From Tubulanus polymorphus (lineage: Eukaryota > Nemertea > Palaeonemertea > Tubulaniformes > Tubulanidae), in assembly GCF_964204645.1 (NCBI RefSeq), contig NC_134031.1, positions 16,737,307-16,801,306 on the forward strand: a stretch of 64,000 bases of DNA, read 5' to 3'. Position 1 is the stretch's first letter. Each line of letters starts with the position of its first letter. The notes beneath the pieces were generated by a model, which searched no databases, was not told the DNA's origin, and saw nothing but the letters and a program-made list of their open reading frames with translations. A program made the translations under genes and the position numbers. Shown here piece after piece: positions 12,505 through 47,900 of the stretch.

Positions 12505-15500
12505 ATGGCCGATGATATGAAATCCGAGTTATTGTGTCCGATCTGTTTGGATTTATACAAAGTACCCATAATTTTGCCGTGTTCGCATATACTGTGTCAC
12601 GAGTGCACGAGTCAGTTGTTTAATCAGAACTTCGTGAAATGTCCGGTTTGTCGCGATCGCTCGTACGTGACCGGCGGCGTCGATACGCTACCGCGCGTTA
12701 TAACCCTCGAAAATATCATACACCGAATTCACCACGGATCGCTGAGCGAAGACGCGTCTACGCGAAGACGAGACGACAGCGGCGGCTCGACCGACGACGA
12801 TCGTGACGAAGCTAGCGACGCTACGATCTCGTGTCAGATGTGCGACGGTAAAACGCCGCGTCGCGCTAAACGGTCGTGTCAGGATTGTAACGCGTCGTAC
12901 TGCTCGGATTGTTTGCAGATATCGCATCCGGCGCGGCCGCCGTTTACCGATCATCGGCTGATCGAACCGTCGTTGCACCCGCGACCGAACGACGCCGTCT
13001 GCACCGAACATAAAGAAAAAGGGAAAGTTTATTGTTCTGATTGTAAGCAGTTAGCGTGTATCGTCTGCGTGGAGTTACGCGTGCACGAAAATCACCAGTT
13101 ATTGTCGCTAGAACAGGCGTTCTTGATGACTAAGGTAAGAAATCTATTTCCTTCAATTTTTCTTATTTCGCTTGGCTTAGAAATTTTCTGCAGCAATTTC
13201 AAGTTCATTCAAGCTAAGTATGAATGAGCGTTAGTTAGTTACCTAATTGTCGTTGGTAGTAAGCTTTTATAATCGAATGGGCTTCGTGAAAATATGCAAT
13301 CGTGAAATTAAACCACAGACCAAGGGACTGACAATAACGAGCAAAAACCACGGTTCATTATTTAACGGTTAATTCTGACAGCTTCGACAGCTTTTGACTA
13401 CTAAACTTTTTTATCAGAGTAATGAAAAAATTGAGTTTCTCTCATTATGAAATTTAGTCAAAACTTTGAAACGTATACCAGTAGAGCAAACTGTTATTTC
13501 ATCAACTGTGGGGTTTGCTCATCAATTCTGTACTGATATTAATAACAGTCTACCTGTCATTAAAGCTATGTATGTTTTGATCTTTTATAATCTTTATCCG
13601 ATCTATGTTGTCATCACGTAAACATTGGCTGAGCATATTTTATATTTAAAGAAAATCACATTTGATTTCGCTTTATTTCAAGATCAGAGGCGATAAAAAG
13701 ACTTTCAAGTATTGGTTTTTACGGCTTGGAAGTGATCAGATCTCTATCATACATGCACTTTTATGAATGGGAAAAAAAGCTTGCCAAGGTGAATGTACTA
13801 TCTTTGTCTTTTCAGGAAGTTGTCACTGAAAATCTGAAGAAATTAGATTCTGTACATATTTCAATCACCGATGCAGTATCCAGACATCAGGAACAACTTA
13901 CAGAATTACAGGTAAGAAAAATATCAGATTTTCAGTTACCAGTAAAAAATTTTTACAGAATCTAAGAATATGAGCAGGAATCAAAGTTATTGGTTGAGAT
14001 ACTCGAGTACTCAGCAACTCTCCCAGGTAACCCGGAAATAATGCACTGCATCATTAACTTGGCTTTCATCCAGTATATAATACTTAATAAGCGCCTTGTT
14101 CTTCTGCCAATTACGTAAAACACTTCCAGCCGAGCTTCCCTGTTCGTATGATTATGTTATTGGCGTAATTTTCACCAACGGAAAGCTAATAAACAATTTC
14201 AAAAAATGCAGCAATTTTCCCTAAATTATATAGGCGCAGTAACTATTCTTAATCAATAGTTTCTCTTGAAAAATGCAGATTGCCTTCTATATGAATGTAT
14301 GATACTGTATGTACATAATGGTAGTCTTAAATCGGGGACAGTTGGATATTTGATTCTATGCTTAAGCAAATTCTTGAAAGATGCTTCTTTATCTATTATT
14401 CATTTTATCATATACGATTAACAGGTTTGATTTTATCATAACATTGATATTGTTATTGTAATGGATTATTGATTATGATTATCGTGATAACTACATTATA
14501 TCATATTATTTTCATCTTTCTTATTTGCTTATTGTTGATATCAGCACTGTCATTGTCATCTTTTTGTAAATCATCCTAAGGCAATGGGCCTCCACTCGAG
14601 TACAACCTCCTGGATTGTCCATTGTCCTTTCCCTTTTTACGCACACATTATCTAATAATACTTTATTTATAGAATTGTGTATAGGTTTGTTGTTATATAG
14701 CAGATGAATTAAGAAATATCATTATTATTACCAAATCGACAGCCACCCCACAGCCACCCCTCCTCCCTGACAGTACATTGTTTTCCCAATTTCTTATTCT
14801 TCTGGGCCTGGTTTTAGACTAGGATTATCTTTAACCGAGGGGTGAACTCAATTGATAATGAATTAGTTAAAGTTGATACTGGGGCCCTGGTCTATTGATT
14901 TAATCTGTTTGATTCACGCAGAAATACGTAAAGTATTGATGATGATTTTGATATTTTCTATTTTCGATAGAAAATGTTCCTGTATCGTAAACCAGATATT
15001 GACTTCTTACCTAAAAAAAAAATCTTACCTATAAAAAAAGTACTGCAAAGGTTGACAGCCTAGTAAACGTTTTTTGTTAGATGCGTCTGTTTTTTCGTGT
15101 ACAGGTGTCGGTTGAGACTCGTCGACAGAAGATCAATCGAGAATGCGATTCATTGATCAGAGAAATCGAGAATAAACGCAGTTATTTCATCGCCGATCTC
15201 GAATATGAAAATCGCAGTAAAACCAACGCCATACAAGACATACAGAACGAATATAAAATCCACTGCACCAAGGTGACTAAACTTGTCCATGTGCGCTAGT
15301 TCCTCTCCGTCCCTGTCCTTAGAAATGATATATCATAAATGTAGATTTGCAATTTGTGGCCGGGTTAAGACAAAAACCGAAATAAGACAAAGCGAACTTG
15401 GATTTATGATTGCCTTCTATTTCTGGTAGTTGTTACCAGTATTTATAAGAGAACGATAATTCTGTGCTGCTTACAAATTCGAAGTAATAAATGGATTCAC

Positions 15501-18500
15501 GCTAGAAATAGATGTTTGAAGTCGGTTTATACCGTATATAATTCAGTCATTCACTGGTAGAAGGCCGGGTGATGGTAGTTAAGTATCTGTGCTTCTAACT
15601 GGTGTTGGGTCTTGTGAATTGTATACCAGCATTTTTGCGAGTCCCAGTAAACCTGTACCAGATGTTGGATCTTCTTATTCCACCAATTGCAAATTTATGA
15701 TTCGTGGCATTGTATATGGCTGTAAAACTGAACTTTGTTGTCTCAACTTACCTTTACTTTTGCTTCTTTTGAGGTTTTCGGTTGTAGTTAAACTGCAGAG
15801 TTAAGACGGAGACCAAAACAAAGAGAACTTTGATTTTGAAAGATTGCCTTGCTGGTAGACCCATACCAGTTTATATTAAGAACAGTAGATAACAGTATTC
15901 CATGCTGTATAACAAATTCAAAGTACCGGTAATGGATAGTTTCACACTAGAAATAGATACTTAAAGTTTGTTAATTCCATCAGTCCCTGGTCTAGAAGGG
16001 TGATGCTGTGGTCGTGAAGTATCTGCGATTGTAACGGCGATTGTAATCGGTGTAGCGTCTCCTGTACCTGCGAGTTGGAGTATAGCGGTACCTGCGCGTA
16101 CCAGTATACCGGCGAGTGGGAATAGTAAATCGTGTGTTGAAACGACGCGTCGGACTTAGGTCACTAGTTGTTCCCGTGTAGCGACGCGTTGTGCTACCCG
16201 TCGTCCGTATTAAACGCTGCGACGATCGTCGTCTGGTATACGACTCACAGTCTGGAAAAATTAAACTGTAAATTAAATTATAACTGTAGAAATATGATTT
16301 TGAAATACTAAGGCCCTTCCCTTTTCTGCCTAGAATCGTCAATAAGTTAGGATATTTTCTACAAAGTATGTGTTGATTCAGCAAGTTCAGTTTTAGTTAA
16401 AAGGCTTACCATGTAAAACAACTGCGATGACTATCAAAACGTATAGCAATACTAACGCGATCTTCATTTTTCGACGTGAGCTCAGTTAGATCTCAGCGAA
16501 GATTATCAAATCCACCCCAATATATATCAATTGTTACGAGCCTCATTTGTTAACTCAGATTTATATGTTTTACACCTGATTAAATTCAGAACAAAGGTAT
16601 TGTTTGTTATATCTGTGGGAAGATTTGTTGACATGCGCGGAATGTGTTTTTTACCTTGTTGAGTTAATTAAATTATGTGTATGAACAGTTGGCTGAGGAA
16701 GAGGAATCGTGGCACCATTTTTGCCCTTCGTTTAATTCCTCTCCATTCGGATCATAAAAAAAATTCCACCATGTTTCTTTCCAGATTTCTTGATCCGAAT
16801 TAATGATTCATAGCATCGAATACCGTTAAAGCTGAACTTCGTATCAACTTACCCGTTATATTTGCTACTTTCGTTTAAATTTTTAGGTTTTCGGCATCGC
16901 TGTCCATAGAAATGAAACCTCATGTTTTCCATACGGACTAACTGTTGTAGTAACATTGCAGGGTTATGACGTAAATGACAATAGAATATTCGTTTAATTC
17001 CTCTCCATTCGGATCATAAAAAAAATTCCACCATGTTTCTTTCCAGATTTCTTGATCCGAATTAATGATTCATAGCATCGAATACCGTTAAAGCTGAACT
17101 TCGTATCAACTTACCCGTTATATTTGCTACTTTTGTTTAAATTTTTAGGTTTTCGGCATCGCTGTCCATAGAAATGAAACCTCATGTTTTCCATACGGAC
17201 TAACTGTTGTAGTAACATTGCAGGGTTATGACGTAAATGACAATAGAATAAGGAGAACTTGGATTTATGATTGCCTTCTATTTCTGGTAATACTGACCAG
17301 TTTCATAAGAGATCAATATTTTTATACTGCTTATACAAATTTCAGGTTATGGATGAATTTAAGCTAGATACATTTTTTGAAGTCAGTTTATATATTGTTC
17401 ATTCGGTCGACGTTCTAGAAGGGCGGTGTTGTGGTTGAGAAGTAATCTTTTTATCTGCGATTACGATCGGTGTATCGTGTCCGAGTATACCGGAACCTGC
17501 GAGTCGGAGTCTGAGTATACCGGAACCTGCGAGTCAACCTGCGGGTCGGAGTCAACCTGCGGGTTGGAGTCAACCTGCGGGTCGGAGTCAACCTGCGGGT
17601 CGGAGTACTCGGGTCAAATCGTATGGTGTAACGACGGTTCGTACTAATGCCACTGCGCGTCCCAGTACGTGTCCCGATTGAGGAACGTGTCCCTATCGAG
17701 GTACGTGTCCCTATCGAAGTACGTGTCCCGATTGAACGACGTCTGTCATACGACTCACAGTCTGCAACAAAGACACAAAAAGAAAATGCATCTTAACCCT
17801 TTTGTACACCGCAGCACGGTGTATAAATCGGTTATGGGCTTAGTTTAGTACACGGCATCATGGTGTATTGATGTTATTAGTTATAAGTTTTTATCTCTAT
17901 GGAAAAATGGCAGGACCTGACAAACATTACCTGAAATATTAGTAACTAACTATACGCTGATGCACTAAAAGGTAGAACACTGGGTTGGAATGTTTTTAAA
18001 TGTTTAAATTATCACCAGCAATTTTGGTTATTAATTAGCCAGTACTGAAAAAGCGTGAAAACTGATTTTTCCAAGCATTGAGCCTCACATATTTCTACTG
18101 TTTTCAGTTTATTCCGCCAGAAAATTATTATTTAAATTATTATTATAGGAAATTCCAGATTTCTGTTCTGTTTGAAACCTACGCAACAGGTTTATAATGA
18201 AAACCAACTTCCATAATCACAAATGAAATATCCAAGTACATACTCTCAGAATTCATGTATGTCTGGCAGAAGGTGTCAAAATGAATTTGTTCTTCTGCTA
18301 AAGTCGAGGACTTACCGTACAAAAGAGCGGCGATGATAATCAAAATACACAGTGTTGCAATCACGATCTTCATCTTTTGCGATCTGAAAACAGTAACTCG
18401 ATTTCCATAGATTTTCGCTCCTTAAATGAATAAAGTATCCAATTTTTCCTAGTACACTCTATTTTATGTACCTCACTTGTGCTCACTCAAAACATCAATG

Positions 18501-21500
18501 TGTTTTTATCCTGGTTTATTGCAGATGAATATTGTTCCTAAGTTGTTATTAGTAATTTTGTCAAGTACATATAATTAGCCTTTGATCGTTTATGCTTAGC
18601 ATTCATCATTATTTCCACGATCGAATAATTACAGCATCTATTTTTGTGTCATCTGTGATTGTTAACATAGTATTCAAACATCGCTTGACATAAAAAGTTC
18701 CTGTGTTGAGCTATTCGTCTGTGTTCACAAATTCACCCTAATTTTTTGATTCCAGAATTACTCATTTTCTCATTTCGTCCCCACTCCCTAATTTGTTTGT
18801 TTGGTTTGTTTTTCCGTAAATAATGTTACACATTTGTACAATGATATTCATCCACATATTGTATTCATGGTTTTAGTAGAATAACCACACTCGAACGTGG
18901 AGAATAGACGATATGGCAAAAACCGACCATGAACAGAACTAAAAGAAAACCAAGAATTTATTTAATCCAAGATTTCAAATGACACGACCTTTTGAACTCT
19001 CTCTAGAGATCATCGTCATATGTGAGGCTAAAGTCTGTCGCACCTGAGGATGATCTCTAGTGAGAATTTGAAATGTCGTGTCATTTTTAATTTTTGATTG
19101 AATGAATTCTTGGTTTTTAATTTAGTAAATTTATAAATTTTTGGTCAAACAGATTCGTAGAATTGATTACACTTGCATTTGAAACATTACAGGTTGAGAA
19201 TCTGATATCATATGCTTACGAATTACTAAAAGAAGAAGATAAAGGAAGATTCCTGCAGTTGTCGGCAACTGTTAACGACCAGTGAGTTATATGTATTTTT
19301 CTCTCAGTTCAAAGGTTCCAAACAATGAATGATATCTGACGCTGTAATACATACAAATTTTATATTTGTTATAGGCTGATGAAAGGAACGACAGTTGGAG
19401 AAGATTTTCCTGTTTTACCTGCCGATGTAGCTCAGTTGAAAACCAAATCTGTTGATTTCCGGAAAGAATGTGTTTTACTGAAAGATCTCAGCTATTTGAC
19501 AGGTTAACTATGATATTAAGAATTGTGTGGGGCTATGTCACCCAGTTTTAATAACTGTTTAGAATTTTGCGGGTACTTCTTCACCCAGACACCACAAGAA
19601 GTTTATTTGCAAGTACCGGGGGTACATTTTGAACTCAACTGTTGCGCATATGCGAAGGCATACAAATGTATGTACATGTATTGAGTAGTGGTCTGAAATC
19701 AGAAAAACATAGATATTTCTTATTTTAGCTCCTTCAACGCCGGTCATTGATGTGTTAAAATGTTCGCGGTCATTTGATACGGTGGTCTTGGTTATACACA
19801 ACAATGATGAAAAAGTAGCGGAAGTCGTCAATTTTTACAATGTTCATTATTGCACTGAACATGAAAAGAGTATGGGCGACCATGTGAGTGATTGTCTTAT
19901 TATAGGTCATCAATGGTTTAAGTAGTTAGTTACCTAATCGTTGGTGGTAAGCTTTTTATAATCAGATGGGCTTATACCATATATGTGGTTTGTGAAAATA
20001 TCCGATCGTGAAACTAAACCACTGTCTGGTTACTGACTATGGTTTAAGCAAAAAGTTTTCAAAATATCAATCTTGATAATCCATGGTTCAAACCCTGGTA
20101 TGGCAGACGCTTTTGCAAATTTCTAGCTGTGAATATCATTGAGAGAATCCCACAATATAAATCTAAAACAACTGTCCACCCATCTTCAGAGTTTTTTTGA
20201 AAATAAACCCTGATGATGGGTGGAATGATTCAACCCCGAAACATAAGGAAAAACAATAGCAGTTTTTCAGATTTATGTTTTGGGTTTCTCTCAATAATCA
20301 ATTGTTCTTTTAGGGCTTTTCACGTTCATGTAATCGTCATACATTCGTGAATGACCATTCGTTCTGTTTTTTTCTCCAGACATTAGCCATTTTCAAGATG
20401 CCTCAGGAAGAGAGAAAATCATTCAGATCAATGGAAAAAGGAAACGCTATGGTTCTCGTTATTACGAACTTGGTCAACAACACTCTTTATTATTTCTGCG
20501 TGAAAGCTGTAAATTCTGCTGGTGAAAGTGATACCTCGAATATCGTTAATTGTACAACTCTGGAAACGAATGACTCTTCAGTGCCTGGTAAAAAATACTG
20601 TTTATGATCTTCAACCTTATAGCTTAGTTCTATTTCCAAAATCTCAATGTATTTACTTAGGCAGCCAACAAAGTTAACCCCAATCAGTCGCTTACTGGTT
20701 CAGGCTGGTCGGAATATTGAATGAACTGGAACTGAAATTTCCAATTATGTACTTCGATTTAAACAAAACATTCTGTAAATTAGACCGCTGATCACACAAC
20801 TATATCCGTACTTCAACTTCTGATTTCAAAATCAAACCCCCTGTTTCACTCCCGGCAGGTGCACCCTAAATCAGACCAAATCTACCAATGAAATAAATGA
20901 AGGGTCAATCCCTATTTCAAGATCAGAAAAGAGATACCAAATCTACCAATGAAATAAATAACTGGTCAATCCCTATTTCTAGATCAAAAATGAAATACTG
21001 TTTTAAAATGTTCTAGGCTTATTCTCACAAACTGTTGAAACTATGATTTATTTTCCAGTTCCTGAAATTGAGAAAAGATTTTGTCGTACGTACACGTCAT
21101 CTATACAGATATATTGTAACACACCTTCTTCGTCAAATCCTCCGAGCGGCGTAAACTTCTATCTGTTATACTGCGAAGCCAACGTACATTCACCGCGAGT
21201 GTGGAAGAGTAAACCGATGTCGCAATACGGAATTTATGAACATCGAGTGTTCGGTCTCGAGCCAAATACCAGGTAATTATGATTGTAGATCATTTTCATA
21301 TCAGCTGACCTAACGGCGACTACCAATTGAGAGTAGTTTCTAGTCATTAAGGGCTTAATTACTCCCTAAGAATAAAGAATACTCTCAAAAAACCAGATAA
21401 TTTCTAGTTCGTTTTCAATGAAACTACTTTTTGGCGTCAAATTACTCTTATTTTTGGTGACAATTACTACAATCGATGGTATAAGGTACCCCTGGTAGTG

Positions 21501-23062: not shown

Positions 23063-26000
23063 TCACTCGACGCGTATTAACAAGTCAACTAACATGGTGG
23101 CGCCGCGTTCCTTCGTGCACCATTCGATTTCGTGATTTCCGATTCGCGGATCGATTTGTTCGTTCGCCTCCACTGATTGACTACTAACGCGATATGAGCC
23201 CGGTTTCATACGAACTTGGAATGCTAACTTCGCTTGATATGATTTCTTCGTTTTCGGATCGCGAAATCTAAAATGAGAAAATGCGTACGATAAGTATTTC
23301 GGGTGGCAAATATTCCCTGACATGCACATTGTTTTCCCTGACTTGATCAGCCAAGAATTCAACCAATTAACGCAGTCAAATACGTAGACACAGATGGAAA
23401 CGGTCTAATTTACGAGAGACCTAGCAATGTCAACAGATTTTCCTGATTTTGGGCTCTTTAACATAATTCTCTGACTTTTTCCCCTTAATTTTTTAAGAAA
23501 AGAAAATTCCCTGACTTTCAGGCAAGCAGCCATCCTGCTATAACGTGGCAAGTAAATGAGGGGAGAGGGGAAAGATATGGTACTGTTCTAATAGTTCAGT
23601 GCATAAGATAAAGTCAGACAAATTTTCTAACATTCATGAAACGTAGTCTTAAACGTAGACTTGACATGCCCCACATATACCAGTATACATATTATACCGA
23701 CACCAAAAACAGTAGCAGTAATTGATTGCATGCACGCGCGCGCAACTGGTGTAATCAGTTAACGGTACTTACTCGTGTCTGGGTGCGTACGTATCACACG
23801 CCGCGTAACGTATCGAAGGCGACAAAATAATCTGTTTCACGTCGCAATCTTCCGGTTTACGTTTCTCTGAGAATAGATCGTGTTGAGCTGCCAGAATCGC
23901 CGACCCCATCACATCACCTAACAAACGATGACAATCGCCGCGTGGTTAGAATGTTTTTGAATTTCAAAACGAAACTGATGAACGTGACGACAGGTAGTGC
24001 TTTTTAGGTAAACTGGTTATGATCTCATGCTACGAGTGTAAAATGATTTCATCAGGTAAATGAATGAAATCTATGAAGAAACAACAGTTATTAATTATAT
24101 ATATCTTACTCCATCGATTTCAATTATTAACCAGATGAACCTAAAACCTCAATAAAATACTACCTATCTTCACATCTATAATTGATTTGATACCAGGGCA
24201 AAACGGCTTTTCTACGAAACAGTATTGACTGAAATGACTTACTTGGCATGTGTAATTCACCGTAATCTAAAATTTTTCTAATAGCACCAACTTGCGTGCC
24301 ATGATAGGCTATGTGCCATTTGTCGAAAACATTTAGCGCCTCCGCTTTGGATGGTAACCTGAATAGAAAAAGATTACTCTGAAATTCTATATAACTGTTT
24401 TCCCTATTATCGATGCCATAATGAATGCTTTGTCATTGCAATCAAAATGTTCTACTTCATTGTCAAGTAAGAGAACCTCTCTACAATAAGCAACTCTCTA
24501 CACCACAAACAGTTAACACTTTTTTCTGGTACCAAGTGAACATTTGACCACTCTACAGCAAACAATACCCATGCGGTGGTTAAAAGTTGTTAATTGATTT
24601 GTTTTCACTGTGATAGTGTTTTCACTCATCATTACACGTGGGTAACTACTGAGAAATTCTATTGAATGGTTGCATATGTTTGGGACTGATTGACTTGAGC
24701 ATTTGGGAAATTAATGACCTAATTGGCAACTAGGTTCGTACCTCTCCATAGCAAAGCCTCTCCACAGTGAACGTTTTGCCCAGATTCAAAAGCTTTTTTG
24801 CAGAGAGGTTTTACCGTATGCATTTTACCAAAAATTCATAAAAACTATATGACTTTTTGGTTTTACTGACCTGAGTGAAAATCTGCACCAACCGAACGGT
24901 ATTCCGTACTCTTTCGGCGGTTCACCTTGACGACAATAGGCCTCGTCTGCTCGGACTTTATGACAAGATTCGCAATAACAGACGCTGTACGATTCAGTGC
25001 TGAAATATCCGTCTGCAATCAGAACAAACCCAATCAAATGAACAACTCATAGACTTTCTAAACGATTGAAAATGATTGCATAATTAACAGCTTTATCTTT
25101 AAACCAGTTTTATCCGATATATTCAATTAGTTTTCCCCGACTTAACCTTCTAAGAACCCAATCAATTTTCACATTAAAATAATATGTAAGACATAGATGG
25201 AAACTGTTAGATTATTAAGCGCGATTCATTTTGACAAATTTCCCTGACTTTTGCTGATTTTTAGATTTACACAAAATTCCCCTGACATTTCAAAAGAGAA
25301 GGAAATTCCCTGATTTTTCCCAGATACTAAAGATATTCACACACGGAAGAAAAATCAACTAAATTCGAAACCGCAATGAGCAGTGGAGTTTATCTTACCA
25401 GGAAGACCTAAAGATGACTTATATCTAGTACACAGTTTTTGGTAATCACAGTTTTTAATGAGATTACTAGAATCCGCTGGGGATGAACAGATCATTTTTT
25501 CCTTGACGCCGTCCTCCATGTCGGCTTTTTCGCGATAGTCCGGCGACGGAGAATGAACGGGACTCTCGTTGCCGGCGACGATCGTCACTTGTTCGCATTG
25601 TCCATATAAATCGACGATCGCGTAGCAAACGTTCGGCAGGTCCTTCGCCGCGATTCCCTGATCGACGTCGTTTACGTATAAATGTAAACACGAATCGTCG
25701 TCTATTAGAATACCGACCACTGAGCCGACGCCTACGCTGTCGAGATTTTGTCCGTACAACGTTTTCATCTGCAATATCGTAGCAAAGGATGTTTTGAATT
25801 TGACAATTGATTCTGTTTAACTTGCTACCATGCTAGGAATGAATGTAATTTTAAAGGCCTGTTACTGCGTCCTTCCAGATCAGTCATTCCTGGATATACA
25901 GCAACGAAATTTAAAAGAGAAAATTTTGAAGAAGTGTCTGCATCACTTTTATATCCCAATTACAGTAAACTCCTACTAAATCAGTACTGTTTATCTCGGT

Positions 26001-29000
26001 AAACCATTAATTTGGCGGGATTGTAAGCAATTATTATCTTTTACACCACTAATCTCTGTTTCTCTATTTTCGGTAACTGCCTAATTGGGTAAAAAAAATC
26101 CAAGTTTTTTTTACATCTATAAACATTTCTCATTGCCTATTTCTCAAAATTGAAAGAGTTTTAAAGGAGTTTCAGGCGTTTTGTTCAAATTAAAGGAGTT
26201 TCGAGCACCTTTAAAAGCATATTCTGTTTAAAAGGAGTTTTTAAGGAGTCGGTAGGGACCCTGTCTTACCTTCGTGCCGGAGTGAAAAACAGAATCCGTC
26301 TGCACGATCCAACTCGGTTTCTTGATGCCGACGGCAGAAACCGGAAACGAACATTTATCTGGCTGAAATGCGATAACGCCGAGCATCAACGACGAAGTCC
26401 AACGGGTCGAAACACAATCTACTTTTACCTGAGAAAAGAACAAGTGTTAACGTGCTATCGATGTCATAGCATTCGAAAAGCTTCATCATCAAAACTAAAC
26501 AAACAAAACGCTTACTTTGAATATATAATTCTTTGGTAGAGGCTTATTGCTGACCACTATACCCTGGTTGTAGCTGGCCGTACGACGCGCCGTCAAATTA
26601 TGGTTGTTCAACGAAATATTTTTGCCGTGATTCGAATGAAAATCTAGCAGTAAACTGTTCGCCGTGTCCTGGTCTTGGTCGTTCTACAAAAATTTTAAAC
26701 GAATCGGTAAATCGAATCGGTGAATCGGAATTTCATTTTCCCGATCGGTCATCGAACGATCGACTTACGTCGGCGTTGTTTACGTCTGCCAAGTCGGAAT
26801 AGATGAGTTGAGGTTGCGAAGTGATCGGTTGATCTAACGACGATGAACTGGTTATCGTGATGACTTCGACCATTCCGTACAAATCGATCACCGCGAACAC
26901 GTTCTTCGGTATATTAGTAGCGGCCACGCCCATATCTTCGCCATTGATGTGGATGCGCATTTCACCGTTAGTTGTTCGCCGTACACCGATCCTATCGCCG
27001 ACCTAAAACAACAATTTTGTCGGATAAAGCTACGGTACATTCACCGCGTACAGGCGCCAGTTGCATTATCATAAGACCAACTTAGTTCTATAGCCAATCT
27101 GACAACTTAAGACCAGTCTTAAGATTTGAGACCACTTTTGGACTTAAGGCACGACTGTGCAACTTGCCCTTGAGTCTAAATCAGTTCATATCAATATTTC
27201 AAATTTAGGTTACTACTGTGAAACTGAAGCCTCAGGACCCAGTTCCACGGTTCTGAGTTAAGATTTGACTCTGAGTTAACTCATTGAAAATGAACTTATT
27301 TCAACTCAGAGTTAACTAGAACTCACAACTGTGGAACTGGGTCTTGATCTGCTAAAATATTAGGCTTTTATATTCAAGCCGTGGAATTTCTATTTTAAAG
27401 AGAAGTAAGTTAAAAAGACTTTAAATTACATCCAATCTTTCCAATGGAGGGACATAATTTTCGTTGATGACGACGCCGTTTTTAAGAACGGTAGTTCCCG
27501 CTACGAGCCAGATCGGTTTCGTTGTCATTTCCATCGCAGACGCCGGTATGTTAGCGATCGGTGTACTGTCGGATATCGCCATACTCGTCAAACCAATCAT
27601 CAAAGAGCCCGACCACTGTTGAGACATACGATCTATTTGTACCTAGGAAACAAGAGCAATATTCTGTGATGCACAGCAGGGGTACATCTAGGGCAAAGAT
27701 CTAAAGGTATTGCCAAATTCTTTAAGGGTAAATTTATCAACAAAATACATCGTTTTCCGCATTTTTTGCAAGGAAATACATTCTTTTCCACATTTTTTGC
27801 AGAAAGTGCAATTTTCAGATTTTTTTCATCAAAATTGTGCCCTATATGACATTGAGTGTCTTAAACTATAGATAAAGGGGCACTCAAAAATTTCAGAAGA
27901 CCCTCGGGATCCATCCTCTTCGTAGGACATTCAACTCATAGGTTCTAACCGTCTTAATACTAGTTAATTCAAACTTTTTTATACAGTTCATTTGGAGAAT
28001 CATAAATTACACGTATTCACGTACCTCAAACATTTCATCAGCTCTTAACGGATCGCAACTGAATACAATGCCGTAATTAAAATTCTGCGTACGTTGCGCT
28101 ATGCAACCATTCCTCGTGTTCTTCAACGTAACGTGTTTACCACAACACTGACTAAATCTGTGAACTGTCAATTCTATATTCATGACAAAAAAAAACCAAG
28201 AGTCCATCATTTGCTGGTAACAAATATTTCACTAGATCCGGGGTAAGATTGATAAACTCTGAAATTTTCACGTTCTTTCACATCCTAACAATCTGCAATT
28301 TTCACAATAAAATTTCAGGATTTTTTATGTATTATTCATTCACACAATTTGACCCCTACTAGATACTGATATTCGAAAGATAAATTTTTGTACAAACCTG
28401 AATTGGCGGGCGTTACTATCTGAGGGATGGTGGTCAAAACTGGTTCATCTAATAGTCTATTACTCAATGGTTGGATACCAGATCCATTAGTGATAGAAAC
28501 CTGTGCACATTGCCCGTACAAATCAACAACAGCAAAAATACCTGAAACACAAACGTAGATTGCTATAAAAGTAGGGTCGATGCCTTCTTCTAAAACATCC
28601 CTTAACGCTAAGAAATGCAGTTACGTACCTCGTGGAATATAATTACAAGCGATTCCCTGATCAATTCCGTCGAGATAATAGTGTAACGATCCGTCTGATT
28701 TACGCATCATTCCAACTCGTGATCCGGTAATCAACGTATCCAAATCGCAAGAATAACCGTTATGTACGGTCGAACCATCCTTCATTATAGCAGATCCACT
28801 GAAACAATCAACAGGGTTCCTTTAGATCAGGGAATCCGAGATTTCCACACGCGGTGTATTTTCGGAACCTACACCAAAAATTCCTGATTGACTTTTAAGA
28901 TATTGTCAGTGGGGGCTGTTTCTGCTGCCACTCATCACCGGCAAGAATGACAAGGTACCAAAATTCAAATTTCCTGACATTCCCCTGATTTTCAAGTGAT

Positions 29001-32000
29001 AATTCGCTATGCAAAAAATAAATCTGAAATTCCCTGATTTTCTCTATTCACTCTGCTGGTCCCTCCTAACCTATTTCAGTAACGTATATCGTATTCACTT
29101 AATGATTCATTTATGCATTTAATATATCATTAATTCATTCATCCAAATATATACCAGGGTCCGGTTTCATAGACTGAGTATCAAAGTTATCCTTAGGGGT
29201 AAATCCTCAATTTGGGTGACAACCTGTGCCCAGGACTGGGTTTCATAGACGTGGAAGCAAAATAATCCCTGGGAAAATTTTGAAATTTGTCAGTTACATC
29301 CATGGTTTCTCATTGTTACTACATTGGTTGTTACCCAGATTAAGAAGTTACCCCTAGGGATAACTTTGATACCAGCCTATGAAAACGGGCCCAGCATTAC
29401 AAAGTCATTATGCTAACTAATCATGTTTAATTACCTATAACAGACATTAAAGAAGCGAATAAAGATAATAAATACCTCAACATCCACGTATCGTATTCGA
29501 TATCAGTCATCGTGTTCGGGAATTCGATTTCTTCGGGACGAATCATCGTGACGCCGGCTTCGATCGAGCCCGACCACCGATCGACCATCTTATCGATGAT
29601 CACCTCGAACAGTTCGTTATCGCGTAACGCTCGACTGCTCATGACGATCGCGTCGTTGAACTCGCCGCGCGCGTTCGGTCGTTGCGCCGTGCGTCCGTTG
29701 TTGACGATGATCGCGTTTTTGCCGTGCACTGTGTGGAAGAGGAGGTCGTCGGCTTCGACGATGACCGGACTGCCGAGTTCGCTCGCTGAATCCAACTCCG
29801 GAACTAAATTCATCAAATAAAACCACTTCAGTGTTCTCAACAACAGGTTTTAGAGGGGCGGCCACCACTTTCATTTTTACATACAACCCTCTAAAAATCA
29901 GCCACCCCTTATAAAATATCTTCTGCCCCTACTAGAATTGATGTCAATATTCTATCAATGCTGATAATTGAATGTGAAAAATATAAGATTACACGAAAAT
30001 TAAGCTTAGATTTTCTGTACTTTTTGGGGGATTGAAAGCCTTGCTACATTAGCAGTCATGATGTTATACACTGATCAATGAATGCGGCCTCTTAAGAATT
30101 CCCATCCCAATGAATATGAAATGCCCTTTAGCCCCTTAAAGGTATTGCAGGTATAATTGGAGACATCTTTTTTCACAGTGTATTTTGGGCATATATCGCA
30201 GGTAGAAATACCAGGGGGATGTCATTACACCGAAATTTCATCCAAACATTTTTGATGCAATTATACATTCTCGATATTATTTCATATGCCTTTAAATTCT
30301 AAAAATCGCCAACTTAGTTTACAGAGAAATGAATATCTTACTCGTAGCAGCAGCTGCTATCGCTCCCTGGTCGACTATCGTAGCTTGCGCCGCTTGGCCG
30401 TACAGGTCAATAACGCCGTAGATGTTCGACGGTACGTTGGACGCCGCTAAGCCCTGATCGATTCCGTTCACGTAGAAATTCAGCGTGCCGTTCTCCTTCC
30501 GGCAAACGCTGACTCTATCTCCGCACTGAAATCCGAATAACATTTCTTCTAATCGTTCCTAGATTTAACAAGATCCAACGATCAATGCCTGCTCGTCATT
30601 CAGTGTCAATCTGAGCCAGGCATAGCGCCTTCTCATACTCTACCCCCAATACCTGTACTCCGAAATACCTATACCCCATTACCTATACTACGGACAAATT
30701 AATACTTTATCTAGTCCAATCAAATCTCGTCTTTCAATCAACATTTTTATATCAAATTCAAAACCCATTTGTGCATCGAAGCTTTCAATCAAAATCAAAT
30801 TAAGTTTTCCCTGTTCTCTTTGTATCATGTAAATAAAGTCGTGGGCTGATTTTATATGGATTTCAGGCTCAACAAATCATAATAGTATAAGTAGTATCAT
30901 TCCAGGGTTCTATCAGATAAGGAAAATTCCCTGTATTTCCTCGCAGCAAAAAAATGAATCCAGATTTTGCTGATTTTCCCGATCTGATAAGAACCCTATA
31001 TAGGCCTAACCATCGATGTAATAATAATAATTGTCATTTATATAGTGCAGGTATCCAAACTAGTCGGTTAAAATGCGCTCCAAATTTGGTATTATCACCC
31101 AAGCCTATAACTCTATGTATCAGTCTCCCAGGGGAGAAATAACACTTTTTTACCTTCAATCGATCTAAATTTTGTCCGTATTCATCGATGACCGTCGTTC
31201 CGTTGTGCATGACCCCGTTCCCGGTCATCATCCACGTTCCCGAGCGAATGTTCGTCATCGTCGACGGAAAGTCTAAATCGGCCGCCGAATGCGTCGTCAC
31301 GCCGATCTCAATCGACCCCGCCCACTTATCGACGATTTTATCGATTCGAACTTCGAACATTTCGCCGGCTCTGAGGGGTCGGTTCGTCAGAACGACACCG
31401 TTATTAAAATCATCCGTTGCGCTGAAATAAAAACAATCCAAAAATAAATATAATTAAATGAAACCTTTGCGATGAATAATTACACTGAACTGTACTGCCA
31501 ATCATTTATAAATATCTCAATGTTATTGAGTTATTTTTGAAAGTTTTCTTTTCATTTCAATTGCAGCCTGGGTAGAGATTGCTGTCAGATTGTTGAATGA
31601 AATTTTCACATTCTTCCATTTCTTTCACAACAAAATACCAGCATTTTTCACACTCTAACGCATAATTCTTCCAAAATTTCTTTAACTTAAACACAGATTT
31701 TGCATAATTTCTGGGCTCAACAGTGTATAGCATACAAAGACAAGGACCAAAATATTTTGTCAAGCATTTTTCTTGAATTTTGAACACATTTTCTGGATTT
31801 TTTTCTTTTTCCAATTTTTTTTCACAATTTTGATTGAGGTTTTCAATTTTCCAGTTTTTTAGACCAATATGACTGACTACTGCATTTGTTGGATTTTATG
31901 GAAAAATGTGCTTCTATCTGTATGCAAATCAATGTACTGATAAATACTTACTTCGGTCGGTAAGCCGTTTTCTGACCATTACTGACAGCCGAATGAGATC

Positions 32001-35929: not shown

Positions 35930-37876
35930 CTATTTCTTCTTCGGCAGCAATTTCTCTAGATTCTTATCGAAATCCGACTCGTTAATGTTCATCATAAGAG
36001 TACCGGCGTTAAGATACACCCTGTTCTGCGAGTTTGCGATCTACAAATAAATGCGTAACATTCACTATTCACTTGATTCACGAGATTAGGCAGAAATTTC
36101 AACCGAACCGATGTGATAAACTTACAGTTCTGGCAATGTTCTGCGCAGCTCGAATTTTACGTAGTTTAAGGTAACCAGGATTAGCAGTAATAGCTTCACC
36201 GATCAGTTTAGCAGCTTGAGCTTCACCCTCGGCTTGCACTACTTTTTGTTGTTTCTCCTGTTTGGCAATCTCGACGACCAATTGAGCTCTTTGAGCTTCT
36301 TGTTGAGCGACCTAATAATCACGAACACACGAATATAGTTATGTTGCTTCGAACAAAGCAAGCCTACAAGTACTGACCAAGTACCACATGTGATATATGT
36401 CTCAATCTTTAAACCGAATTCCACCGATCAACAAAACTGGGTCCAGATGACATTTAATTACATAAATTCTTAAATGGTTTCTCATGGGCGGTTGGAAAAT
36501 AAATGAATGATCCCTTACATATCTTTCAAAATTCCCAATTTTTGTATTTTCGTGGAGAAAGGCTTTCAATTCAAACATTCAAAATCAGACCTAAAGTCAC
36601 TGGTTAATTTCACGAGATCTGGACTGTAACTGACCTGCTTTGATTCGACGGCTGCCGTATACTCTTTTCCGAAACTCAATTCAGTGATGGAAACGTCGTC
36701 GACGATTAGACGGAAATCTTTCGCGCGTTCGGTCAGTTCACTACGAATGAGTAACGAAACCTGCTGTCGTTGTGTGATCAATTGTGAAGCGTTGAATTTA
36801 GCTACGACCGCTTTCAAAACCTTGAAATATGAAAAAAATCGAATTTGGTTTTTTCCATCATTCGTTTTCTACGCAACATGAGACATCGACCAGGATTCAT
36901 AAATTCATGACATTACCTCATTCACAATTGAAGGTAACACTCGGTCATCATAGTCCGTTCCCAGTTGACGATACATATTCGGTAATTGCATTGCATCTGG
37001 TCTGGCTAACACACGTAGTGAAATATTAACCATTTGTAAATCTGAAAAATGTATACATTGAATCATTGCATCAACACAATTAACTGACTAATTTGTAAAA
37101 ATAACGCATATAAAAGTATCAATCGTTTGCCTATTACCTTTGCTACCAGTTGGTGAGGTAATTTTTCTTGGCCTCGATCGAATGTCATAGATTATTGGAT
37201 AATGAAACCACGGAACTCTGTAAATGAAACATATTTCAATTTGCAATCAACTCGTACAGGGGCTGCGCAGTGACCTCCAGATTGGGAGGGGGTTAATTTG
37301 CAATGTACTTCTAGCTAGGATCAAAAGAACTGAAAGTGCTCATTTGCAATCAACTCGTACAGGGGCTGCGCAGTGACCTCCAGATTGGGAGGGGGTTAAT
37401 TGGCAATGTAGTTCTAGCTAGGATCAAAAGAACTGAAAGTGCTCAATAAGGGATCCAGGGTCCATGCTTAAAAACTGAAACTTTTTGGGGAGAGCCCTGG
37501 TTGACACATACTGTCACTAGGAAAAGGAGACTGGCTGCTGGGGCGAATGTTTTCAACTACTAACCGGAAATGAAGTCCTTCTGTATAAACATCATTTTTC
37601 ACGCCACCGATTCTGCTGAAAATAATAGCACGGTGACCACCATCGACTGTAAAGAATAATCAACAATTGTGTAACTGTTGTTGCATCAGTAGGTTTTACA
37701 AGTTACATGACATTACAGCGCCATCTGGTGATAGAAATCTTACCGGTGTAAAACGAGTGTGCGGCTCCATATGCGAGTCCAGCTGCGGCTGCCAGCAGCC
37801 CTACACCTTTACCCAAACCTTTGCCACCCTTGCTTAACCTTCCAGCGAGGTCGTTCATCATGTTCTTACCCTCCAT
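35930..37876 (-). CDS. PHB2: Prohibitin-2
   Basis: Subunit of the ring-shaped prohibitin complex of the mitochondrial inner membrane, which scaffolds proteases and cardiolipin domains and acts as a mitophagy receptor in vertebrates. Seven exons on the minus strand: 37876-37744, 37646-37565, 37217-37138, 37041-36917, 36820-36635, 36311-36126 and 36040-35930. They give 300 residues; human PHB2 has 299. The N-terminus is [19 protein letters not shown], followed by an Ala/Gly-rich membrane anchor at about residues 22-42. The SPFH/PHB domain follows ([51 protein letters not shown]). A C-terminal coiled coil ([20 protein letters not shown]) and [14 protein letters not shown] complete the match. This is PHB2 rather than PHB1, judged from [10 protein letters not shown] and [12 protein letters not shown]. 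Confidence 0.97.
37241..37446. repeat. Tandem duplication, two copies of 103 bp
   Basis: Units at 37241-37343 and 37344-37446 differ at about two positions (AATTTGCAATGTACTT versus AATTGGCAATGTAGTT). They lie in PHB2 intron 2 and have no coding content. Confidence 0.92.
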
Positions 37877-38053
37877 TACCAGTTTCTATTCGACTGCGCA
37901 GAGTTAAAAGTGAACCCGGAAGTAAGCCGGTACCTATACCACGTGGTTTCAGATCGAAAAAAGGTCGCTAGCTTTCACGGTTCGGATGCCGGACCGGGCT
38001 CGCGCAGCGGTCGCTCGCTTGATTGTCAAATTTCACTTCCTGGTTTGAAAAAG
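37877..38053. promoter_or_regulatory. Divergent promoter of PHB2 and TRAPPC13
   Basis: Only 177 bases separate the two start codons, which point away from each other. The interval is GC-richer than its surroundings and has no TATA box, as expected for a CpG-type bidirectional housekeeping promoter. Confidence 0.75.
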
Positions 38054-39908
38054 ATGGAAGGCAGCAGGGAAAGGGAGCAGCTTCTGGCTTTGAAAGTGAT
38101 GCGTCTGACGAAACCGTCGTTGATGTTGGGTCACAATGTTATCTGTGATAGTTATGATCTACCCAAGGATGCGTTCAATACGGTTCAGTTGCCTGATTTA
38201 GCCACTGTTCAGGGCGAACAGAAATTGGGCCTCAGCGAACTGTTGACTTTACCCCAGAATTTTGGCAATATATTCTTAGGCGAAACGTTCGCCAGCTACA
38301 TCAGCGTTCACAACGACAGCAATCAAGTGTGCAGAGATGTCCACGTTAAAGCAGACCTACAAACTAGTCTGCAGAGGCTCCCCCTATCAGGTGCGATCTT
38401 CGTCATGTCCGTCATTTGGCTTTCTGAAGAACTAGCTTTTTTAATGCCTTATATCACAGGCACTCGCCGATGGGCTTGGGATACAGTTGCTGGGGTTTTC
38501 GATAGTGTATTTGTGTTTTCACTCGTTATTCTGCAATAAATCCGAGAAAAAACGTCTCGATACTAGGTCACACGGGCACCTGCTACAAGTATTCCCAAGT
38601 ATTCTTAACTACCTTTTCTTTTATCTCCCAGCTACATTTATGCCTGTCCCGACATGGGCCCTAGTAGCTTGTTTACTATTGATTGCCTTATCTTCGCTCA
38701 TGACCTACTCTTAAAACCCTAGTTAAGTTACCTAATCGTCGGTGGTAAGCTTTTATAATTAGATGGGCTTATAGGCCTACCAAGAAAATATAAGAAATGC
38801 GGTTTGTGAAAATATCCGATCGTGAAACTAAACCACAGACAGGTAACTGACTACTATAACCCTAGACCCTAAATTCTGCAAACTTTCCCTTTTGAATAGA
38901 TATGGAAGAAGATGTAGGAAATGGCAGGGATTTTTTTCTACAAAACATGTCAAAATAGCCATTTGAATAATAATAGATTCGCTCTTCATTTCAGGGGCTA
39001 CGACTGATGTCGTTCAGGAATTGAACCCAGATTGCAGCATAGACGACGTCATTCAACACGAGGTTAAAGAACTCGGCACTCATATTCTGGTATGCGCCGT
39101 CAGTTATTTAACCATGTCCGGCGAGAAAATGTATTTTCGCAAATTTTTCAAGTTCCAAGTTTTGAAGCCGCTGGACTTGAAACCGAAATTCTATAACGCC
39201 GAATCCGATGAAGTTTACCTCGAGGCTCAGATCCAGAATTTGACGCCGATGCCGATATTTCTGGAGAAAGTCTCGATGGAACCGTCGCTGGAGTACACGG
39301 CGACCGAACTGAACACTCATACCATAAACGAGGATAAAGATCGATACGTATTCGGGAAAATAAACATGTTGAACCCGATGGACACGCGACAGTATTTGTA
39401 TTGTCTAGTTCCGAAGCCGGAATTGTACGGAGAGTCGAAAGTCATAAAGGGCGTAACGAACATCGGAAAACTGGACATCGTTTGGAAAACGAGCATGGCC
39501 GAAAAAGGCCGCCTTCAAACTAGTCCGTTACAACGCGTAGCCCCCGGTTACGGAGACGTGCGACTGGCGATCGAGTATATGCCGGACGCGATCGCGCTCG
39601 AGAAACCGTTCAACGTTACGTATAAAGTTACGAACTGCAGCGAACGTACGATGGACTTGACACTGGCGCTCGAGAACAGCCCGTCGTCGGGGTTAATGTG
39701 GTGCGGTATATCCGGTCGTCAGCTCGGGAAAATCAGCGCGAACGAGAGCCGCAAAATTAATCTCAGTCTCATCGGAATCGTTCCCGGTTTGCAAACTGTG
39801 TCCGGATTGAAATTGATCGATACATTCCTGAAGCGTACGTACGAACACGACGACATGGCGCAGATTTTCATCTTTTCGGCGAATAACAAAAACGGTTCAG
39901 TAAATTAA
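38054..39908 (+). CDS. TRAPPC13: TRAPP complex subunit 13
   Basis: Accessory subunit of the metazoan TRAPPIII tethering complex (Rab GEF, ER-Golgi traffic and autophagy). Two exons, 38054-38390 and 38995-39908, give 416 residues, nearly the human length. Diagnostic stretches are [112 protein letters not shown] and [10 protein letters not shown]. They cover the beta-sandwich core from end to end. An in-frame open stretch extends upstream to about 37910, but the ATG at 38054 gives the family-typical N-terminus. All 305 C-terminal codons sit in one exon, unlike the heavily split vertebrate gene. The single intron carries an M1 MITE. Confidence 0.96.
38720..38854. repeat. MITE family M1, copy 4 (in TRAPPC13 intron)
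   Basis: Begins TAGTTAAGTTACCTAATCG and ends CAGGTAACTGACTA, so both inverted termini are present. It has a short internal insertion after GGGCTTATA compared with copy 2. Confidence 0.8.
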
Positions 39909-44325: not shown

Positions 44326-44993
44326 GCTTAAGGTTCAAGATGGGGGGTATTCGATTGTGTTATCGTTTAAATCTAGCCTGTGGACAATCCTTCTAAATTT
44401 ATAGATCAATTAATCGCAATAATTACGAATATAATTACAAAATCATAATAAGTCCTATTGAATATATCTAATTTAAAAGCTAGCATTGAGTCCAGCTGAG
44501 ACGTGGAATAAAGCAGTGAATTCGACGCGACGTTTCGTTTCGTCAGTTAATCAATAACTATCACACGTAAGCGATGCGGAAGAGAAATATGTCAACATTT
44601 CCAGATGCATCTGTTGTGTATTTCACGCTTGATTTAATTGGATTCTAAATCGGAATATCTACCCGGGACGATAATCTAAACATTGAGATTATGTACGCGT
44701 TGTTTTAATCGCGGTTTTATAACTTCGAAGGCCATTCTAATCGAACATTTCCAGTTTCTTAGACTTCTTAAAAATTCGTTTGCTCATCGTGACATTGACA
44801 AAATAGCGTAGGCCTACTCCCCCTTTGCCTAACATAAATGAAAAGGATTGTGGTTGAGATAGGGTTATATCTAACAACTATCAAATGGCTTGAGAAGCGC
44901 AATTAAATCTGTTAATGTTCAAATTTCACTGTTTCCCTCTAGCTAGGCCTGTATCTGTATGTCAATCCATATTTTGTTTATTTGCAGTTCAGC

Positions 44994-47900
44994 ATGAGCC
45001 AAAACGCGCCATGGCAGGTCCAAGAAAATCAGCATCAGAAGGGCCAAGTTCAGATGTTCGACCCGACGCAGTTCAGTCAACCAGCTGCGGCACCTGGTGG
45101 ACCAGCTACATCGCCTGGCCAGCAGCAACAACAACAACAGAATTCATCTAATAACGTGAACGGCGATGGATGGGATAACAGTTGGAATTGGGGGGATGAA
45201 AACCAACCAAACGCCGGTCAACAGAATAATCACCAACAGCAACAACAATGGCAATACGACCAGCAACAAAACTGGAATAATTATTACAGTACTCAACAGC
45301 AGTATGGATACAGCGCTGATAGTACTGTCGGGCAGAATTATAACGATACATCCAACCAAAATTACGGAGATACCGGATCTTTTAATCAGAGTTGGAATAA
45401 TCCGGAGCAAGCCGCGAACGATTGGAGCAATATTAATCAACAGCAGTGGTACGCTCAACAGCCGGTAGGCGGCGCCGATAGTTTCAATTACGCGAATACC
45501 GCCGTCGATCAGGCGGGAGCGGTAACCTACGGCGACGATCGTAATACGAATAACGTCGATCCGTCTGCCGCGGCGTCGACGACGATGAACTATCAACAAT
45601 ACGACGGATTTCAAGGCGTCGTCGATTATACGTCGTCGGCTCAACCGAATCACATCGATGCTCGGTACGACCATGACGACGGAGGAACCGCGTCGGCGTT
45701 CTTCGGTAAAAATGATGATTACGATGACTCCGGTATCGTTAACGCTGCTCCGCCGCCACAGCCATCATCGACTGCTGACCAAATGCAAGATATAAATTTA
45801 GGCGACGATTCGACGGGTAACAACGAATCGGGGAATTCGGACGCGTTCGGAGAACACAGTCGACAGAGTTCGTACGGCGGAGGCGCGTCATTCGTAATCG
45901 GATCCGGGCCGAACAGTCGTCGAACGTCTGCTTTACCCGACGACGTGCAAACTTTTACCCCGTCTAATCCGGCGGTTGAATCGGCTCAAATACCGGCGCA
46001 GACGACGAGCTTATTGTCGGAAAACGTCGCGGTGAACGAATCGTTTCAAACGCGGTCTTACGGCGATTCTTATCATCAAGATTCGTTTCAAGGTCAACGT
46101 TATCAATCGCAGACGTCGGTCGATTCGTTTAATTCGGAACGCGCCGCCGTGCTCGATTCGTTCGCCCCGAATCAGAACCATTCTCGTCCGGCGAGCGCGG
46201 TCGAACAAAACGCTCGTCCGATCGGTCTGTTCGATCCGGCATCTCAGTCGCTACCCGCGTCTCCGCATCCGGCTAGTCGCGCCACTCCGACGAGTCCAGC
46301 TGCCGGATATTTTCAACAACCGGCGCAGATTCCGGCGTCGGAGCCGAGTCGATCGAGACCGCCGTCGTCTCATTCGACGAAAAGTCACGACAGTTTCGTC
46401 GCGTCGTCGGTTCATTCCGATTCGATGCCGACGACGAATCGGTCGCCGGCTTCGACTCCGTATTCGGGAAGTATCCGCGGTCCGAGTCCGCTGGCGCGTG
46501 ACATGTCGCCCGTGCAGAAATCCAACGACAACGCTGCTCATCATCAACATCACAATCATCCGCCGCGTAATCTACCGGCGATGCAAGCTTTACAAGAACA
46601 CGGCTCGGAAACTATTCTGAACGACGCTGCGTCTATTGGGGTGCAGTCGCAGCCCATTAACATTCCTGGTCAGCCGCCGACTGATTTACCTATATCGCCT
46701 AACGAGCACGCCATGAGTATCTATCACAGTCCGATACAACCTCATCCGAACAGTCTGTTCAGACCGGTCGGTAAGGTGGTTACGCCGACCGAACCGGATC
46801 AGAATCGAAAGCTCGGAGGCTCGACGGAGAATGTCGCAAATGTCGAGACCGATCAGCCGGGAATGACGACGACTCAACCACCTCCAGTGAGGCTACCGCA
46901 GATGGACCAACATCAACAGGCAGGACCAGCCAGTAGTCATACACCTCAGCCGCAAACAATGTTTGATCCTCATCAAGCCTCACTCTCTACTACCACTCCT
47001 CAGCAAGTACCAATAGCGGTTTCTCTACAGATGCAGTCATTAACTTCTGCTAGCCAGCCTCATCTGGTACAACCAGCTGGACCACCCGAACAACTGCCAC
47101 CAGCCAATCAGCCTCAGCAAGTTCAGCCGGTTACTTCTGTGCCTCAGAATATGGTGAGCAGCGCTCAACACGTAGCTCCCTCACCACCAGCCCAGCCTGT
47201 CAACCTTCAACAGACTCCGGTGGAAAGTATCAACGAGGGGCCACTAATTCACAGCTCCGATCATCCTCAGAATGTATCCGCGCCGCAGCAGTCGGTACCT
47301 GCACCGGTTATCACCGCAGCACCTGCTGCCCAATCGGCGAGCGATGTCGATTCTCAAGCTCCGATGTCGCCGTCGAGATCGGTTCTAATGAGACAGCGTT
47401 ACCGCGAAGGTAACAGTCTATCTCCGGCGGCTACGCTGTGGGATAACCCGGTCAGCGCTAACGTCGTACTAGCAGCTCCCATAAAACAGCCAGCTTCTAC
47501 TAGTTCTACTGCCGGTCTGTTCGAAAATCCTAGTCAGAATGGAACGACGTCTTCGGCCTCGACCGCTGGCTACTTTCCACCTCCTGGTCAGAGCGCCGAC
47601 AGCGGCACGGCTGCTCCAAACCCTCGACAACAACAGCCAGTAGTTACACAAGCTCAGCAACCAACTTTTACGCAACCGAAACCATTGAAGGATGCTAATT
47701 TGGCACCGATCATTGATCAGGGTAATACACAAGATCCTATAAATAAGCATAATGAACCGAGTCCTTCAGTTCAAAACGAACCTGTAGGAGACAGACCAGT
47801 TTATAAAGGCGAGTTTCGGTCAATGAAGTCTCCTAATACAGACCAACTGGCATCTAATACTGGTGGTCAAGTCAACCAAGGTTTGAATAATACATCCATC

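Follow-up and report, generated by a model that had tools for sequence, protein, structure and literature searches.

Candidate genes for arginine- and threonine-rich secreted peptides nested antisense within a TRIM intron of the nemertean Tubulanus polymorphus

Here we describe a small gene cluster in a 64,000-nucleotide (nt) stretch of the Tubulanus polymorphus genome (contig NC_134031.1, positions 16,737,307 to 16,801,306), which is referred to as the window and to which positions refer unless another contig is named. The minus strand between 15.3 and 18.4 kb of the window holds two two-exon genes, A and B, and one remnant, arranged head-to-tail and transcribed in the order B, A, remnant. 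Comparison of the copies supports the view that A and B are real protein-coding genes, the predicted products of which are small secreted polycations, and these products are probably fast-evolving defence or adhesive peptides of a broadly familiar type. A preliminary description of the locus had given the coordinates of A and B, which proved exact to the base, and an architecture (signal exon of 58 nt, intron in phase 1 and second exon starting with D-C-E-S-Y) that holds in both genes, with GT-AG introns. The parts of the two genes are as follows:

18316 to 18373, minus strand: exon 1 of gene B, 58 nt, signal peptide MKIVIATLCILIIIAALLY, aligning with exon 1 of A above shuffles
17762 to 18315, minus strand: intron of gene B, 554 nt, GTAAGT...TTGCAG, phase 1
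17451 to 17761, minus strand: coding part of exon 2 of gene B, from D-C-E-S-Y to RNRR, then TAA, holding 18-nt repeats (SIGTRT, LTPTRR)
17415 to 17450, minus strand: frame past the stop of gene B, KDYFSTTTPPF followed by TAG, the lost C-terminal tail still being discernible
16410 to 16467, minus strand: exon 1 of gene A, 58 nt, signal peptide MKIALVLLYVLIVIAVVLH
16252 to 16409, minus strand: intron of gene A, 158 nt, GTAAGC...TTCCAG, phase 1
15992 to 16251, minus strand: exon 2 of gene A, from D-C-E-S-Y to YFTTTASPF, TAG included

In both genes, exon 1 encodes Lys and a hydrophobic run, the intron starts with GTAAG and ends with CAG after a pyrimidine-rich tract, and exon 2 starts with the sequence (G)AC TGT GAG TCG TAT. 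Protein A is 105 amino acids long (MKIALVLLYVLIVIAVVLHDCESYTRRRS...YFTTTASPF; stop TAG), and protein B 122 (MKIVIATLCILIIIAALLYDCESYDRRRS...RNRR; stop TAA). The in-frame sequence behind the TAA of gene B is the counterpart of the C-terminus of A (RYFTTTASPF), which shows that a small sequence change creating a stop has cost B 11 residues. On this comparison, only A retains the ancestral C-terminus, and B stops 11 codons early relative to A. The earlier claim of two intact genes needs qualifying for B, which is C-terminally truncated by the early TAA.

The coding status of A and B is supported by several features of their alignment, in which about 31% of the aligned sites differ. The alignments of exon 1 and of exon 2 outscore all 300 shuffled pairs, whereas the introns do not stand out (P 0.23). 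The 3' flank aligns too, which is to be expected of copies that belong to a shared duplicated unit. When exon 2 was aligned using nucleotides only, all 257 aligned bases fell in the same phase, the internal gaps being 6, 15, 60, 9 and 3 nt long. With exon 1 included, the amino acid is changed in 44 of the 99 codons, against 56.4 expected when the observed substitutions are placed at random (P 0.0002). Repeating this test in six frames gave a significant deficit in the proposed frame only (P 0.0005; next best 0.068), and each of the other five frames contains at least two stops in each gene. Selection on a different frame, named in the preliminary description as an outcome that would speak against it, is therefore not what we see. 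The codon alignment gives a nonsynonymous rate (dN) of 0.32, a synonymous rate (dS) of 0.70 and a dN/dS of 0.46, a ratio that leans low because this alignment rewards identical residues; the bootstrap range of the corresponding ratio of proportions (pN/pS) is 0.42-0.81.

These data also bear on the alternative that the copies are decaying or non-functional duplicates, all three heading for loss, whose frames stay open because GC-rich in-frame tandem repeats hold few stops. This view may be supported by the observations that one copy is dead, that B is truncated, and that 18-bp satellites elsewhere in the genome likewise give long Arg/Thr-rich frames. Besides, a null simulation gave a 5% chance that no new stop would arise, so an open frame by itself is not strong evidence. 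The substitution deficit is frame-specific, however, the insertions and deletions preserve phase, and the splice sites and signal exon are conserved while the introns have diverged, and for these reasons we consider decay of the whole set improbable.

The third, decayed copy and the repeat between B and A have the following positions:

15359 to 15700, minus strand: decayed third copy, comprising the end of exon 2, with stops, and the 3' flank
16727 to 17250, no strand assigned: tandem pair of 262-nt copies without a single difference, lying between B and A and related to the surroundings of the remnant

The remnant, at about 15500-15700, matches the exon 2 ends of A and B (over 15484-15614) and has stops but no recognisable exon 1, and the flank downstream of it (15359-15440) shares 79% identity with that of B (17220-17301); the decayed copy of the preliminary description is thus real. 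The relationship between the B-A intergenic sequence and the surroundings of the remnant indicates that a unit consisting of a gene plus its downstream sequence was duplicated, and on these alignments all three copies derive from tandem duplication of a single unit. The exactness of the 262-nt copies suggests that the sequence was duplicated either very recently or in the assembly. A transposon was considered for this repeat and rejected, as it was found nowhere else by genome search.

The cluster lies within another gene. Plus-strand exons flanking it (about 12505-13134, 13819-13911, 15105-15272, 19193-19281 and further ones) form a joined reading frame that encodes a RING domain, two B-boxes and a TRIM coiled coil (PF25600; 33.8 bits versus a Pfam cut-off of 30), with a fibronectin III domain downstream. 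The limits of the host exons were judged by eye, using splice sites and open frames; the two that enclose the cluster are:

15105 to 15272, plus strand: exon 3 of the host TRIM gene (coiled coil)
19193 to 19281, plus strand: exon 4 of the host TRIM gene

These exons meet at a phase 0 junction. Since the host exons join in frame to give TRIM domains, the cluster is located antisense within TRIM intron 3 (about 15273-19192), in agreement with the nesting proposed earlier. Close to the 3' end of this intron, an inverted repeat of 80 nt with a 12-nt loop and 81% complementarity is present at 18946-19117. Each of the twelve large contigs carries related copies at 70-90% identity (82 matches, with 530 candidates at first look), suggesting that it is an element resembling a miniature inverted-repeat transposable element. 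An Rfam search of the window gave no match. Elsewhere in the window, one or more Neuralized-domain exons (25355-31453, minus strand) and a TRAPPC13 gene (37838-39908, plus strand) are found. A 1208-amino-acid open frame at 44943-48569 is rich in Gln, Pro and Ser and, by eye, possibly Sec16-like, with no Pfam match; its C-terminal Arg/Asp repeats derive from 15-81-nt tandem repeats at 48168-48325.

The 268-Mb genome was searched at the protein, DNA and motif levels; these searches, the results of which are lower bounds, revealed no further members, and hence the family is, as far as detectable, confined to one locus in this genome, a narrower statement than the lineage specificity proposed in the preliminary description. 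Several candidates were rejected. The weak tblastn matches close to chromosome ends on contigs C4, C7 and C10 are due to 18-bp minisatellites; near the ends of these contigs, long arrays of CGGAGTACTGTGTACCGA-like units are open in several frames on both strands and so produce spurious Arg/Thr-rich open frames in tblastn. On contig C6, the matches at 1.1-1.7 Mb belong to a repeat whose unit measures about 2.4 kb and whose copies are 90-97% identical; at least seven of these span 0.55 Mb (C6:1.15-1.69 Mb), with an internal repeat array and open frames of 190-262 amino acids, and they are unrelated to A and B. The match at C1:9974553 has a stop and resembles the query in composition only. Where the YAGAYTGYGARTCNTAY motif occurs outside the locus, no Arg/Thr frame follows, and looser motif matches on C10 lie within a tandem array (C10:13133643-13133990) that has in part a spacing of about 49 bp and contains a motif differing at three positions from the DCESY exon start. 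The assembly gave no COX1 match, and five contig ends showed no clear telomere repeat; GH6, annelid linker globin and arthropod cuticle proteins likewise had no match, a weak negative because the controls gave no signal either. Among described families, Pfam gave only New_glue for A, at 20.0 bits and below the curated cut-off of 31, and no match for B. No relative was found in NCBIfam, in bacterial and archaeal genomes or among viral contigs. In the PDB, A had no match, and a two-sequence profile gave one chance nucleoporin match (E 1.6). The preliminary description recognised no family, and across these collections this remains so.

The predicted proteins have a peculiar composition. After exon 1, Arg makes up 27.9% of A and 29.1% of B, and Thr 23.3% and 24.3%, in line with the roughly 28 percent Arg and the Arg/Thr richness reported before; the secreted, tandem and antisense-nested character likewise proposed is supported by the sequence and the substitution pattern. 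The hydrophobic core of the N-terminal signal is clear in both proteins. A weight matrix for signal peptidase, the result of which is to be taken as a lead, scores 3.83 in A and 3.27 in B at a shared CES/Y site, near the usual cut-off of 3.5, and A has a second site after Ala15 (6.59). A cut after C-E-S, the best site shared by A and B, may leave a Cys-free chain from Tyr24. Each protein does contain the single Cys noted previously, but this residue may be removed together with the signal peptide. From Tyr24 onwards, Arg accounts for 24 of the 82 residues in A and 30 of the 99 in B; Lys, Met, Trp, His, Val and Cys are absent from both; Ala occurs once in A and never in B; and there is at most one TTT run. 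Tyr amounts to 11.6% in A versus 4.9% in B. The 18-nt repeats of gene B yield SIGTRT and LTPTRR. AlphaFold2, run with the second exon of A as a single sequence, returned no confident fold (predicted local distance difference test score 55; predicted template modelling score 0.10), which is consistent with disorder, although the evidence is weak.

Each protein contains nine Arg-Arg runs, most of which have Thr or Asn before them and Tyr, Phe or Leu after them. They exceed the expectation from shuffling in A (9 against 4.9; P 0.002), and this regularity would be in keeping with a multi-peptide precursor, in which convertases would cut at Arg-Arg to free short signalling peptides (LTPT three times, YTGT, YRYTPT, FRYTQTPT). 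In B, however, the excess is marginal (P 0.056) and stems in part from the 18-nt repeat. Moreover, the peptides so predicted would be very short and show little conservation from A to B, and there are no Gly-based amidation sites beside Arg-Arg, no Lys-Arg sites and no acidic spacers. We therefore give the precursor explanation little credence.

The composition is also compatible with a disordered Arg/Thr/Tyr chain that serves as an adhesive, mucus or extracellular-matrix protein, working like the Drosophila Sgs and new-glue (ng) proteins or mussel foot proteins; such a chain could be stored in secretory granules, maybe glycosylated at Thr, and then released within glue, mucus or a coating. 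The Thr content, the repeats, and the co-occurrence of Arg with Tyr and Phe fit this function, as does the organisation into nested, tandem, short signal-peptide genes seen at the Drosophila ng/Sgs loci (PMC10835880, PMC6352337). The weak New_glue match of A (20 bits) points in the same direction, and the small mussel adhesive protein fp-3 contains hydroxyarginine (PMC4275877). The New_glue score is nevertheless under the cut-off and lacking for B, the drop in Tyr from A to B indicates that no 3,4-dihydroxyphenylalanine (DOPA) chemistry is conserved, and no Cys is available for cross-linking. In addition, there are two genes only, and structural secretions often have more copies or far longer chains. 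Taken together, this structural role is somewhat doubtful, while deserving serious attention.

The explanation that we rank first, tentatively and with a structural role a close second, is that A and B encode linear polycationic antimicrobial or defence peptides working like the myticalins of mussels. The ranking follows from what the two proteins conserve, namely, charge and the pairing of Arg with hydrophobic residues, rather than Tyr content or Cys. The preliminary description suggested host defence or secretion chemistry, and both are still conjecture. Signal peptidase would cut near CES/Y and free a chain, disordered and about 80-100 residues long, that carries a net charge of about +20 to +25, provided wholly by Arg and not by Lys, and assembled from T/N-R-R-(Y/F/L) and TPT or SIGTRT motifs. 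The chain would bind anionic surfaces through many Arg contacts, aided by Arg-aromatic stacking, and may serve at the surface of an epithelium or of mucus as an antimicrobial peptide that is linear and free of Cys. The array would have originated by tandem duplication of a gene-plus-flank unit within the TRIM intron, probably followed by repeat expansion and truncation of the tail in B, and by decay of the third copy.

It should be noted that several points weigh against a defence peptide of this kind. The disorder call comes from one single-sequence prediction, and with only two copies the selection estimates are coarse; gene conversion may imitate constraint, and the 3' flank is conserved between the copies alongside the exons. 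The complete absence of Lys is unusual among antimicrobial peptides, and a Thr content of 23-24% suits glycosylated secretion at least equally well. Myticalin precursors have an anionic C-terminal extension and mature peptides of 17-47 amino acids (PMC12294457), whereas the mature chains of A and B are longer and have no anionic extension after a dibasic site, A ending in YFTTTASPF without an acidic residue and B in RNRR.

Genes nested in antisense orientation, secreted repeats in tandem and linear peptides rich in Arg each belong to kinds already known. The predicted A/B pair lies outside every described family testable here, and its Lys-free Arg/Thr composition is unusual. It is unlikely, but conceivable, that A and B represent an undescribed animal gene family of wholly Lys-free Arg/Thr-repeat secreted polycations that arose and was kept within a TRIM intron, and that their chemistry, whether Arg-aromatic phase separation, glycosylation of Thr or processing at Arg-Arg, differs from the chemistry of all antimicrobial and glue families described so far. 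Small repeat-rich secreted genes are easily missed by annotation because of their short exons, low complexity and nesting, and the pair with its dead sister captures repeat expansion, tail loss and gene death against a background of persisting frame and signal exon. Should the products be antimicrobial, they would add a Lys-free, Thr-rich class to the few cysteine-free cationic peptides of invertebrates; if adhesive, they would be a small natural Arg-aromatic polymer of simple repeats that is directly synthesisable and testable.

Among known systems, the Drosophila ng genes (PF21827), which were first found nested in a dunce intron, resemble A and B in encoding secreted, basic and Thr-rich proteins of fewer than 180 amino acids and in being tandemly arranged within an intron of an unrelated gene (PMC10835880). 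Their basic C-terminus is rich in Arg and Lys, while the predicted mature parts of A and B are Arg-rich without Lys; ng genes also have no intron, and their products are Ala-rich with runs of three or more Thr, unlike A and B, which have an intron, one or no Ala and at most one TTT run. A and B thus agree with New_glue/ng members in length and predicted signal peptide, but not in score, intron or composition. The Drosophila genes Sgs1, Sgs3, Sgs7 and Sgs8 share with A and B two coding exons, the first of them short, and an intron in phase 1 located at the signal peptide (PMC6352337, PMC10835880). In Sgs1 and Sgs3, the second exon is likewise repeat-rich, and the Sgs genes are clustered and turn over fast. 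Their intron lies at codon 10, within the signal peptide, and their proteins have a C-terminal IRXC[L/V]C motif, however, whereas the intron of A and B is at codon 20 and there is no C-terminal Cys. Regularly spaced basic residues in ng/Sgs proteins are thought to hold threads extended (PMC10835880, PMC6352337). Compared by description only, mussel foot protein 3 (Mefp-3) is, like A and B, a small secreted protein, and has functional Arg residues, but it is a Gly-containing adhesive protein with hydroxyarginine (PMC4275877).

The myticalins of Mytilus mussels, also compared by description only, are lineage-specific, tandemly clustered and cysteine-free, with a phase-1 coding intron and pseudogenes; subfamilies A-C contain 25-31% Arg, and subfamily A consists of Pro-Arg-Tyr-type triplets (PMC12294457). 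A and B differ from the Pro-rich myticalins in being Thr-rich, and they have two coding exons as modelled, with no 5' untranslated exon identified. They share with the myticalins a predicted signal peptide, an Arg-rich mature part (about 29%) with no Cys past the predicted CES/Y cut, a phase-1 intron in the coding sequence, a tandem cluster and a pseudogene copy, and their Arg-aromatic motifs are comparable to the Arg-Tyr repeats of subfamily A.

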